Both the position numbers and the translations under genes were made by a program. Of a stretch of 35,723 nt of DNA, positions 29,005-33,825 are shown piece by piece. The DNA is from Nonomuraea lactucae (GTDB lineage Bacteria; Actinomycetota; Actinomycetes; Streptosporangiales; Streptosporangiaceae), in assembly GCF_003313395.1 (NCBI RefSeq), contig NZ_QNFZ01000014.1:1-35723 (forward strand). The letters run 5' to 3'. Positions within the stretch are counted from its first letter, which is position 1, and the number at the start of each line of letters is the position of its first letter. The notes under the pieces were generated by a model, which saw only the letters and a program-made list of their open reading frames with translations, was not told the origin of the DNA and ran no database searches.

Positions 29005-29619
29005 CTAGTCGTTCTGCTGATTGATATACATGTCTCCGGCTGATTGCTGGATTCGCGCTCGGTCGTAGCCGGTGGCGTTCATCTCTATTCGCGGTGAACG
29101 CGGTGGGGCTTGTGGGGTGAGAGGTGCGATCTTCTCGGCGATGAGGCGGCGTAAGGCGGCCGCGAATGCGGGGTCGGCGAGCGCGTGCCGGCGGAGCCGC
29201 CCCTGCCATTCCGAGACGAGTTCGTCATGGACGGCCGGGGCGGTGTCCGGGCGCGCGGCCGACAGTTCGCGGCGGGTCTCCACGAGAGCCGCCTCGACGT
29301 CCGGGAGCCGGTCGGGGAGGGTGTCGCGCCAGAGCCTGAGCAGCGCCACCTCCGCCTGCCTCCAGTTGTCACCCCCCATGGCGTTCACCAGTGAGACGGC
29401 TTCGGTACCGGTGAGTCGATCCACGGTCGCCTCGCTCTCCCGGGTGCGGGTTCGTGCCATGCCGCGCAGGCTCACGGCGAGGCCGGCGAGCGCCACGACC
29501 AGCCCGAGCACGCTCGCGAGCTTGTCGGCGGCGTCGAGGCCCACGACCGCGGTGCCGAGGGCCAGGGCGAGCGCCGCGCAGAGCGCCGCCGCGACCCTGA
29601 ACAGTGCGCGCTTGGCCAT
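29005..29619 (-). CDS. Two-helix membrane protein with a C-terminal amyloid-like motif (candidate effector)
   Basis: ATG 29619 (MAKRALFRVAAALCAAL) is preferred over 29670. Two hydrophobic helices (about residues 6-25 and 30-50) lead into a soluble, Arg/Glu-rich helical domain (about 58-170): LTGTEAVSLVNAMGGDNWRQ, ALLRLWRDTLPDRLPDVEAAL, SEWQGRLRRHALADPAFAAA. The last 27 residues are a separate tail, with ARIQQSAGDMYINQ as its centre. The start region of the divergent STAND protein has the matching [13 protein letters not shown]. Short motifs shared in this way between an effector C-terminus and a neighbouring NLR N-terminus are known as bacterial amyloid signalling sequences. The gene would then encode a membrane effector; its actual activity is unknown. 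Confidence 0.75.
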   Translation of the reverse strand: MAKRALFRVAAALCAALALALGTAVVGLDAADKLASVLGLVVALAGLAVSLRGMARTRTRESEATVDRLTGTEAVSLVNAMGGDNWRQAEVALLRLWRDTLPDRLPDVEAALVETRRELSAARPDTAPAVHDELVSEWQGRLRRHALADPAFAAALRRLIAEKIAPLTPQAPPRSPRIEMNATGYDRARIQQSAGDMYINQQND

Positions 29620-29775
29620 GCCCCCATCATGGCCGGGAATTTCTGATCTGTCGCGCCGGATGGCAGCCACCCTTATCCCGACTTATCGCGCTTTATCCGG
29701 GTAAATTGGCGGGTCGAGGTAACGAAACGGGTTATTCGCGCGCGCGCCCTGGTCGCTGATTTACCGTGAAAGTTG

Positions 29776-32700
29776 ATGGACGAGCGCGAAGAAGAACCAC
29801 AGATACGCTTTGAGGCTCATGCGGAGGATTCGGCGAGCATCAACCAGGCGGCCGGAGATCTGCATTTCTATCTCGAAGACGGCACTCGTGTCCTGCGCCG
29901 CACGATCCCCGGCCAGACCACGGACATCTGCCCGTACCCCGGCCTCGCGGCGTTCGGGCCCGACCAGTCCGAGTGGTACTGCGGGCGCGACAAGGTGCTC
30001 GCCAACCTGCTCGGCCTGCTGGACCGGCGGCGGTCCGGCGTCCAAATGATCATCGCGCCCTCAGGTGCCGGCAAGTCCTCGCTGCTCGGCGCCGGGCTGC
30101 TGCCCGAGCTCAAGGCGTCCAAGCTGCCCGGCTCCAGCCGGTGGGCGCGGCTCTGGCTGACACCCGGCGTTCATCCCGTCGCCGCCCTCGCCGCGCAGGT
30201 CGCCGCCGTCACCGGCAACCCGGTGATCCCCGCGGAGTGCGCCGACATGCTCCAGCGGCATCTGGGCGACACCCCGGCCGTCGTGGTCGTCGACCAGTTC
30301 GAGGAGCTATTCACCCTCTGCGCGGACCTCGGCGAACGCCGGCAGTTCCTCGAGCTGCTCGGCCGGCTCGCCGAGCGGGTCGGCTGGGTCGTGATCGGCC
30401 TGCGCGCGGACTTCTACAGCGCCTGCCTCCGCCACCCGCTCCTCCTGGCCGCGCTCCAGGACAGCCCGCTGCTGCTCAAGAGCATGACCGTCGAGGAACT
30501 GCGGGACACCATCCTCTATCCCGCCCGCCGCGAAGGTCTGATCGTCGAACCCGGCCTGGTCGAACTGCTGTTACGCGACCTCGGCGCCGGCCCCGAAGGC
30601 GACTACGAGGCCGGCCGCCTCCCTCTCCTGGCCCACGCCCTGCGCGCCAGCTGGCAGCAGCGCAACGGGCACACGCTGACGGTCGCCGGCTACCTGACCA
30701 CCGGAGGCATCAGTGGGGCCATCGCCACCACCGCCGACCGCACCCTCGCCGGGCTCAGCCCGGCGGGCCAGGCCATGACGCCGCGCCTGCTGGTCCAGCT
30801 GGTCAAACTCGGCGACACCGGCACCCCCGACGTGAGGAGGGCCCGTACGCGCGGCGAGCTGGTCGACTCCAGCCACGACCCCGCGACCGCCCGCGAGGTC
30901 ATCGACGCCTTCACCGACGCCCGGCTGCTCACCTCCGACCGCGAGACCGTCACGATCACGCACGACGAGCTGCTGCGCAGCTGGCCCCGGCTGCGCGACT
31001 GGATCACCGCGAACCGGGAGGACCAGCTCATCGAGCAGGCGCTCGGCGAGGCCGCGACCGCCTGGCACCGGACGAGCGACGCGGACGTCCTCTACCGGGG
31101 AGCGCTGCTCGACCAGGCCCGCGCCTGGGCCCGCCGGGCCGTCAGCCCGCTGACGGCACCCGTCGCGGAGTTCCTCGAGGCATCCGACCGGCTCCAGCGG
31201 CGGACCACGCGCCGCCGCAACGTGATCATCGGTACGTTGACCGTCCTCAGCCTCGTCGCCACCACGGCCGCCGTCTTCGCCCTCCAGCAGCGGAACGACG
31301 CGCTCGCCCAGCGTGACCTCGCCGTCTACAACCGGGTGGTCACCGAATCCGACCGGCTACGGGCCACCGACCTGTCGAAGTCGGCGCAGCTCGCGCTCGT
31401 CGCGCACCGGCTGCGGCCCAGCCCCGCCACCGCTCAGCGCGTCCTCGGCACCCAGTTGTTCGCGCTGTCCATCCCGCTGAGGGGGCACACCGACAAGGTC
31501 ACCTCCGTCGCCTACAGCCCCGACGGCCGCACCGTCGCCAGTTCGAGCTGGGACAGCACGATCCGGCTGTGGGACGTCTCCGACCCGGCGAACCCCGCGC
31601 CGCTCGGCCCGCCGATCACCGACGGCCAGAAACAGGTCAACACCGTCGTGTTCAGCAACGACGGGCGGCTCATGGCGAGCGCCGACTGGGACCGGGTGTT
31701 CCGGCTGTGGGACGTCTCCAACCCGTCCCGTCCCGTCCTGCTCAGCCAGACCGACAACGGCGGGAAACCGGAGGACGACAGCGCCGTCGCGCTGAGCCCC
31801 GACGGGAAGATCATGGCGGGCACCGGCCTGGGCAGCGCGATCGACCTGTGGGACGTCTCCGACCCGCGGCGGCCCGTCAAGATGAGCAGCCGCCTGGTCA
31901 GCACGGACTCGACCACCGCCAACGGGATGGAGTTCAGCCCGGACGGCCGCACGCTGTTCAGCACACGCCAGTTCGGGGAGTCCCAGATGTGGGATCTCAC
32001 CGACCTCAGGCACCCGAAGTCGCTCGACGAAGAGATCGACACCGAGGCGGCCGCCTTCAGCCCGGACGGGAGACACCTCGCCACCAGCGGCCTGCGCGGC
32101 ATGGTCGCCCTGTACGAGGTCAAGAGCCGGGCCAAGCCCGAGCTGGCCGGCTTCGCCCTCACCGGGCACACCAACACCCTCGGGGACATCTCGTTCAGCC
32201 CCGACGGGCTGCTCATGGCGACCGCCAGCCAGGACCAGACCGTGCGGCTCTGGAACATGGCCGATCCCCAGCGCCCCACGCAGGTCGGCCCGCCGCTGAC
32301 CGGGCACACCCACGACATCGACACGGTCCGTTTCAGCCCCGACGGCCGCCGCCTGGTGACCGCCAGTGACGACTACGTGGTCCGGCTGTGGAGCCTGCCG
32401 CGCTCCGAGCTCATCGGCCACTCCTCGACGGTGAGGTCCGCCGTGTTCAGCCGCGACGGCACCAAGGTCGCCACCACGAGCGACGACCAGTCCGTCAGGT
32501 TCTGGGACGTCTCCGACCCGGCGGAGCTCCGGCCGTTGGGCGTACAGGTGCCCGCCCATCGCGGCCTCTTCAAGACCGAGTCCGCGTGGAGCCCCGACGG
32601 GCGGCTGCTCGCCACGTTCGCCGACTTCAGCCGCGTGCGGCTGTGGAATGTGTCCGATTTCTCCGCGCCTCGTACGCTCGGGGACCCCCTGCCCAACGGA

Positions 32701-33825
32701 GGCGAGGCCGTCCTGTCACCGGTCTTCCGGCCCGACGGCGCCGTGCTGGCCGTCGGGAACCCCGACGGTGGCGTGCGGCTCTGGGACGTCACGACCCCGT
32801 CCGCCCCCAGGTTGCTGGGCGCGACCACCCGCCGCGGCTTCCCCGCGTTCGCCGTGGCCTTCTCCCGCAGCGGGCGCCTGCTCGCCATCGGGCACGGCGA
32901 CGGCAAGGTCGTTCTTTGGGACGTCTCCGAGCCCGGCTCGCCGCGGCGCCTCGCCGAGGGCACCAGCGGGTACCAGCAGGAGTCGGTGGAGTTCTCGCCG
33001 GACGGCCGGGTCCTGGCCAGCGTCAACAGCAACGAGGCCATCCAGCTGTGGGACGTCTCCGACCCGAGGGTGATGAAGCCGCTGAGCCGGCTCCGCGGCG
33101 CCCACAACGACGCCGTCAACATGGTCGCGTTCAGCCCCGACGGGAAGACCATGGCGTCCGGCAGCCAGGACAGCACCATCCGGATCTGGAACGTCACCGA
33201 CCCGAAAAGCCCCACCCCGCTCGGCGAGCCGTTCATCGGGCACAGCGCCGACGTCCGCAGCGTCGCGTTCAGCCCCGACGGGAAGACCATGGCGTCCGGC
33301 AGCCGGGACAACACCGTCACGATCTGGTCCATGGACACCGGCGCGGTCATGGACCGGATCTGCCTCCTCTCGGCGGCCTCGATGACGCGGGAGGACTGGC
33401 GGCAGCACGTGGGCCCGGACATCCCGTACGACCCGCCGTGCGCCCGCCGTCCCACGGCGGCGCCCGCCGCCCCGCCGTCCCGCGCCTTCGACCTGTCCGG
33501 CGTCTGGCAGGGCACCTATCACTGCGCGCAAGGTGAGACGTCCATGCGCCTGACCGTCGGCGCACAGGCCGCGGACGGCTTCGTGTCCGCCCGGCTCGAC
33601 CTCGGGCCGACCGCGGCCAACAAGCGTGTCCCCCGGGGCGCCTTCACCGTCCACGGGCGCGTCGCCGGTGGCGAGCTGCGGCTGCTGCCCGGCCACTGGA
33701 TCGAACAGCCCTACGGCTACGTGATGGTGGGGCTCACCGCCTCCCTCCGGGACTCCCGGCCCACCCGGCTGACCGGACGCATGCTCCACCCGTTCTGCAC
33801 GAGCTTCAGCATCACCCGCGCGTAG
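29776..33825 (+). CDS. STAND ATPase/WD40 receptor-like protein
   Basis: The 1349-residue protein starts at ATG 29776. Residues 10-31 carry the short motif shared with the divergent gene. Residues about 48-470 form an nSTAND1-type ATPase: PYPGLAAF, the CGRD motif, Walker A PSGAGKSS (95-102) and Walker [11 protein letters not shown] (Asp173, Glu176-177), followed by helical and winged-helix parts. One membrane helix lies at about 482-505 ([20 protein letters not shown]), after RRTTRRR. Fourteen WD40 repeats follow (about 568-1188; typical ending LWDVSDP), enough for two seven-bladed propellers. A C-terminal beta domain (about 1238-1349) starts [12 protein letters not shown] and ends with another Cys. 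STAND proteins oligomerise on ligand sensing. Its 3' end overlaps thiC by 14 bases on the opposite strand. Confidence 0.9.

Follow-up and report, generated by a model that had tools for sequence, protein, structure and literature searches.

A divergent effector and receptor gene pair of Nonomuraea lactucae with a shared terminal motif and a BASS-like layout

The question raised by this locus is whether two adjacent genes of Nonomuraea lactucae, one for a small predicted membrane effector and one for a large receptor, act together through a short motif that each protein carries at one end. Both genes lie in a 35,723-nucleotide stretch of contig NZ_QNFZ01000014.1 (assembly GCF_003313395.1, positions 1 to 35,723), which we call the window. 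The effector gene occupies 29005..29670 on the minus strand and has 221 codons if read from GTG 29670 or 204 codons from ATG 29619; it is an open reading frame (ORF) with coding-like G+C content by codon position. The receptor gene, defined by its ORF and by Pfam, occupies 29773..33825 on the plus strand, with ATG 29776 as the probable start, and encodes an nSTAND1 domain, a transmembrane helix and WD40 propellers. The original prediction, made from the letters of the DNA, was that the motif passes an amyloid fold from receptor to effector. Our analysis makes it probable that the pair is a BASS-like (amyloid-type) two-protein signalling system, assembled in the plane of the membrane, whose Bell-like effector would damage that membrane.

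The shared motif of tail and head

The C-terminal tail of the effector, PRIEMNATGYDRARIQQSAGDMY, aligns without gaps to the N-terminal head of the receptor over 23 residues, with a BLOSUM62 score of 50. The effector-side copy (residues 194-218; 29017..29091, minus strand) and the receptor-side copy (residues 10-34; 29800..29874, plus strand) were placed by alignment and by a motif profile and belong to a motif class designated A, which may correspond to BASS1, if to any BASS family. The predicted arrangement, a motif common to the effector C-terminus and the N-terminus of an NLR-type protein in adjacent genes, was confirmed: both ORFs are as placed, and 0 of 20,000 shuffled receptor heads reached 50 against the effector tail (maximum 49). 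The background consisted of 90 long frames rich in G+C at the third codon position, taken from the window and ten further stretches of the same genome. Against it, no other head reached 50 with the effector tail (0/89, maximum 31), no other tail did so with the receptor head (0/89, maximum 28), and among all pairs 1 of the 8,010 combinations of tail and head scored at least 50.

The motif profile has 25 columns and was built from 20 sequences that include the effector tail and the receptor head, which favours their own scores. At E<=10 it gave six matches in the genome, with 150 of 227 first-look candidates scored: the window tail and head, both copies on contig C995, the head of an nSTAND1 gene on contig C982 (E=2.1e-9) and one place at E=5. 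Contig C995 is probably an assembly duplicate of the window end, its first 16,000 bases being identical to window positions 19724-35723 (G000:C799) with zero mismatches, and copy counts in this genome are therefore doubled. Chance resemblance of tail and head is ruled out by the shuffles, the background frames and the genome-wide profile. What the resemblance marks is a motif class, not a specificity for the window pair; of 56 heads scored with the window tail the own head comes 6th, and of 56 tails scored with the window head the own tail comes 3rd.

The C982 gene (L062; G000:C982, 9976-11061, minus strand) also encodes an nSTAND1 protein whose head is of class A. Its frame stops early, transposase-like sequence (recognized by eye) follows the early end, and no Bell-like or hairpin match lies nearby; it is a decayed receptor.

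The Bell-like domain and its partners across relatives

The effector had been described as a two-helix protein unlike the Bell effectors, and this description had to be replaced. Relatives and profiles, together with the tails, show a two-helix membrane hairpin of the 'GLDKADK' type (residues 26-68; 29467..29595, minus strand; hydropathy, hairpin profile and relatives) followed by a Bell-like helical domain of about 105 residues (residues 83-187; 29110..29424, minus strand; profiles, relatives and model). Across 200 genomes of the family, effector matches are confined to one of two parts, the N-terminal one up to about residue 112 or the one that starts near residue 56; the window and its duplicate are the sole exceptions and span both. 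The effector gave no Pfam family above the cut-off and no PHROGs match, and PADLOC-DB 2.0.0 gave 0 families at E<=1 for effector or receptor. An AlphaFold2 model of the effector, computed from 57 sequences in an alignment that has no depth over the hairpin, reached a mean predicted local distance difference test (pLDDT) of 84 and a predicted template modelling score of 0.59. Numbered from ATG 29619, its helices span residues 2-24, 30-82, 86-100, 102-121, 128-148 and 150-167; the tail is modelled as coil (pLDDT about 55-64) and the rest is helical.

Relatives encode the Bell-like part by itself, in proteins of about 137 residues whose identity reaches 41% in a 15-sequence alignment. Its profile matched at E<=0.001 in 169 of 346 genomes in a search of the order and in 62 of 394 in a search of the class, the two genome sets overlapping. 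We examined 84 Bell-like ORFs, which represent 81 loci once the duplicate L060 and the second ORFs of L054 and L076 are left out. Across these loci the tails differ while the Bell-like domain stays constant; the tail types include QAGRD(Q)xI (class A), AVQGxGVQN, ARDxxxxFAxQGGN, GPVIQxG, SVAxGGD and others. According to excerpts of PMC7889193, Bell domains are small and helical, include a hydrophobic helix, bear a C-terminal motif from any of ten families and are encoded beside an NLR gene. The present family fits that description. The hydrophobic first helix has faded in the window effector, where its peak hydropathy is 0.45 versus a median of 1.58 for the 84 ORFs; lower values were found in L050 and L096 (partial hits) and in one of the two L076 ORFs.

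The relation to Bell was examined by profile comparison with proteins bearing the published BASS3 peptide and their relatives, a collection of 22 matches from which 4 duplicates, 3 receptor-side heads and 8 unrelated sequences were dropped and 7 Bell-side domains kept. The 81 Bell-like domains matched this cleaned set with P=3.5e-4, a probability of 37% and a score of 26.1; 60 column-shuffled controls scored at most 14.7 and the reversed control 12.4. A subset of 35 domains, chosen by N-terminal sequence, gave P=8.5e-6 and a probability of 83%. We use the name Bell-like rather than Bell because just 35-36 of about 106 columns align, a partial profile match that suggests membership; no Bell model in Pfam or NCBIfam matched the domain.

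If tail and head work together, their motifs should correspond in relatives as well. A receptor rule based on position only gave a pair at 56 of the 81 loci, and the sum of cognate tail-head scores was 2704 versus 1824 +/- 84 for permuted pairs (maximum 2180; z=10.5, 0/20,000). The cognate head was ranked first in 5 of the 56 and within the first three in 13. By motif class, no permutation reached the observed sum for class A (27 pairs) or 'class B' (11 pairs), and 58 of 20,000 did so for the remainder (15 pairs); the 3 class C pairs had no separate permutation test. These classes are crude patterns, and 'class B' also took in other tails, for example those of L107, L109, L112 and L121. When receptors were chosen by their P-loop instead, 45 of 80 loci were paired, with z=10.0 (the Bell - NB-ARC fusion L053 left out). 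The predicted co-occurrence of the two families with matching motifs in homologous loci thus held as a tendency under both rules, and part of the signal may reflect whole loci that descend from a common ancestor. Nine receptors were sent to Pfam, and six of them were of nSTAND1, NB-ARC-TPR or NACHT type. At the 45 loci the P-loop neighbour lies downstream on the same strand in 40, upstream in 2 and convergently in 2, and the window alone is divergent.

It had also been predicted that the tails co-vary between the two genes across species. This stood for the motif class and was not borne out for residues within a class, where covariation is weak or absent. Named loci gave 63 pairs from 80, of which 55 score at least 40; this set came from a search with two patterns, one of them the motif. 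The pair-specific excess was z=5.3 in the 27 class A pairs and z=0.0 in the 63 motif-selected class A pairs. The G or R beside the final D shows no covariation (Fisher p=1, 58 pairs). I or Q at motif position 4 does covary (3 I-I, 55 Q-Q and none mixed; p=3e-5), three pairs being a thin basis and possibly the product of common descent. Pair-specific coevolution of motif residues is therefore unsupported overall.

Several Bell-like loci have unusual architectures. The tails of L115 and L124 carry two motif types in tandem, SIxIGGDNSGIASxGD and then QAGRDQTI, the first of which also ends hairpin proteins such as L135 and L138. The frame at L047 (6914-8074, plus strand) has a Bell-like domain, a central motif, a predicted transmembrane stretch and then another domain. 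At L053 (5030-7357, minus strand) a Bell-like domain is joined directly, without motif tails, to an apparent NB-ARC/TPR protein with the P-loop GMPGVGKT. The tails of L103, L111, L116, L119 and L125 are of type AVQGxGVQNxxF, similar to the published BASS3 peptide (RHIM-like), and the heads next to them match.

The hairpin module

Among the 84 Bell-like ORFs the hairpin profile matched the window and its duplicate only, and it matched none of the 80 named Bell-like loci. No second fusion of hairpin and Bell-like domain was found among the top candidates of 200 family, 55 genus and 394 class genomes, which are overlapping sets. These whole-effector searches scored 14 candidates per genome for the family, up to 54 for the genus and 8 for the class, so rare fusions may be missed. 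Weak long matches in G550 and G636 were rejected as fusions: neither has a hairpin match at E<=1, and the sole Bell-profile match is in another frame (E=0.36).

The hairpin also occurs without the Bell-like domain. We fetched 20 hairpin loci, 18 with fewer than 160 residues behind the hairpin in frame and 2 with more. A P-loop neighbour was assigned by rule at 10 of the 18 short loci. In 7 of the 10 its head matches the tail of the hairpin protein with a score >=45, a level reached by 15.6% of non-cognate pairs (z=4.2, 1/20,000 permutations). The pair at L135, which scored 91, was missed by the P-loop rule. At L139 a hairpin protein (5891-6244, minus strand) lies divergently beside a NACHT-LRR receptor (6184-8418, plus strand), and its tail shares VHNEIxGTVxGxxxQARDxxGxIxF with the receptor head at a score of 94. 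In L144, L146 and L148 a class A tail stands directly behind the hairpin. These pairs suggest that motif-tailed hairpin proteins beside matching NLRs form a second effector class. Tentatively, and with somewhat less than even confidence, we propose that the GLDKADK hairpin defines an unnamed second class of motif-tailed NLR effectors and that the window fuses both types, giving a tethered Bell-like executioner and a membrane-spanning receptor that would form a signalosome within the membrane plane and may read an extracellular signal. In the literature searched (titles and the starts of abstracts) we met no hairpin-type effectors with amyloid motifs, and none of the papers listed by a text search for QAGRD-type strings dealt with the BASS family of the motif, judging by title.

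The hairpin also stands in other settings. In L063 (G000:C555, 5087-6196, plus strand), in the same genome as the window, it is followed directly by an nSTAND1 domain, the two being joined by a linker of the VHGDVVHGPVV type, and hairpin proteins lie a few kilobases from Bell-like genes at L109 (3824-4243, minus strand; a 140-residue frame) and L103 (951-4100, minus strand; a 1050-residue frame).

The receptor, the proposed mechanism and its alternatives

The receptor combines an nSTAND1 nucleoside triphosphatase (NTPase) domain (29932..31077, plus strand; Pfam E=4.1e-113), a predicted transmembrane helix (residues 484-502; 31222..31278, plus strand; hydropathy and sequence) and a WD40 propeller region (about residues 569-1199; 31477..33369, plus strand; Pfam). 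The claim that it spans the membrane is borne out to the extent of this one predicted helix. Because the basic residues RRTTRRR precede the helix, the propellers are predicted to lie outside the cytoplasm, which suggests an NTPase inside and a sensor outside; an intracellular phage component would therefore not be the obvious ligand.

Amyloid signalosomes of this kind, BASS / Bell-NLR, were reportedly described in multicellular bacteria by Dyrka et al. 2020, with families BASS1-10. They are also covered in PMC7889193, PMC8086366, PMC12261475 and PMC9815663, and in the excerpts seen of PMC8086366 and PMC7889193 BASS peptides form amyloid, some of them making fibrils and seeding partners. The window pair follows the published layout: adjacent genes with the motif at the effector C-terminus and the NLR N-terminus, an NLR-type NTPase with repeats (here nSTAND1 and WD40), a small helical Bell-like effector domain whose motif class differs among relatives, and a filamentous actinomycete host. 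It departs from that layout in the hairpin before the Bell-like domain, the faded first helix, the divergent genes and the membrane-spanning receptor. Fungal HET-S/NWD2 and mammalian RHIM systems share the logic in which a receptor N-terminal motif templates an effector C-terminal motif, with no claim of sequence kinship; the bacterial motif published as RHIM-like, BASS3, looks unlike class A. EAD-coupled/EACC1 systems, as presented in excerpts of PMC7159879, likewise occur in multicellular bacteria, have a homotypic element common to effectors and receptor-side proteins, and set a small membrane protein next to a large variable partner. The window element is a motif of about 25 residues, whereas EACC1 in those excerpts has one transmembrane helix flanked by alpha+beta regions, and its partner frequently bears a caspase domain. 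The effector's Pfam matches include no EAD and, at E<=1, no EACC1 (the presence of an EACC1 model in the library being unchecked); on the receptor side the listing covered 25 of 65 Pfam families.

The mechanism that we favour would begin with a ligand of the WD40 propellers, probably outside the membrane, that makes the NTPase oligomerise. From this step on the scheme is drawn from the fungal and bacterial systems named above. The oligomerised receptor would cluster its N-terminal motifs on the cytoplasmic face, and the cluster would serve as a cross-beta seed templating the same-class motif at the effector C-terminus. As the effector is already held in the membrane by its hairpin, recruitment would occur in the membrane plane. 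Assembled Bell-like domains would then damage the membrane, and the cell would stop growing or die, as might befit a role in defence.

Several results weigh against this scheme. Five other heads equal or beat the own head for the window tail, and the pair-specific excess vanishes in the larger, motif-selected set. Cognate scores of at least 45 were reached in just 27 of the 45 P-loop pairs, versus 16.9% of non-cognate pairs. No downstream ORF was found by rule at 25 of 81 loci and no P-loop neighbour by rule at 35 of 80, so many tails are without an identified partner. The Bell comparison, besides its short aligned stretch, gave P=0.009 before the unrelated sequences were removed and P=0.014 over 21 aligned columns with the 15-sequence alignment. 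Among solved structures the effector model found no convincing match and no helical-bundle match.

In an alternative reading the motif would be a short homotypic docking element and clustering alone would activate the effector, with no amyloid templating. The motif is short, its tail is modelled as low-confidence coil and tail and head match at class level only; the layout, however, equals that of the BASS motifs, of which some form fibrils and seed their partners in the excerpts cited above (PMC8086366, PMC7889193), and we regard simple docking as distinctly unlikely. A somewhat stronger case, though still an unlikely one, can be made for the hairpin as the active part, a two-helix former of membrane pores or channels for which the Bell-like domain would be a mere spacer or oligomerisation module. 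The motif-tailed proteins that consist of a hairpin only beside NLR-type genes (matching heads in 7 of 10 testable cases), the NACHT-LRR pair of L139 and the lost hydrophobicity of the first Bell-like helix point that way. Against it, the invariant tryptophans of the Bell-like domain are retained and its identity to stand-alone domains reaches 41%, so that it is under constraint. We give very little weight to the reading in which the system has decayed or been crippled, the fusion having been made by rearrangement and signalling having been lost. The C982 nSTAND1 gene, which shares the head motif, has decayed in this genome, the hairpin-Bell fusion is known from this genome only and the own head is not the best match, but both frames are open over their full length and coding-like, and both motifs score highly. 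BASS-like signalling between receptor and effector remains the reading that we prefer.

That Bell-domain effectors attack the membrane is put forward as a hypothesis in the excerpts of PMC7889193. A permanent hairpin before a faded first helix would be a natural test of helix insertion as the activating step. The hairpin-only pairs, one of them with a NACHT-LRR receptor, suggest that additional membrane effectors share the tail logic.

Other features complete the locus. The divergent intergenic region between the probable starts (29620..29775) was searched by consensus for a sigma-70-type site and gave none. Behind the propellers, the C-terminal receptor region (33487..33822, plus strand) matches no family in the Pfam search and contains two cysteines. 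The closest receptor relative among ten loci compared is that of L072 in N. jabiensis (43% over 1286 columns), whose same-strand neighbour is a classic Bell-like gene that encodes a class A tail. The L041 receptor bears a class A head; it has an nSTAND1 domain, and its propeller matches are weak.

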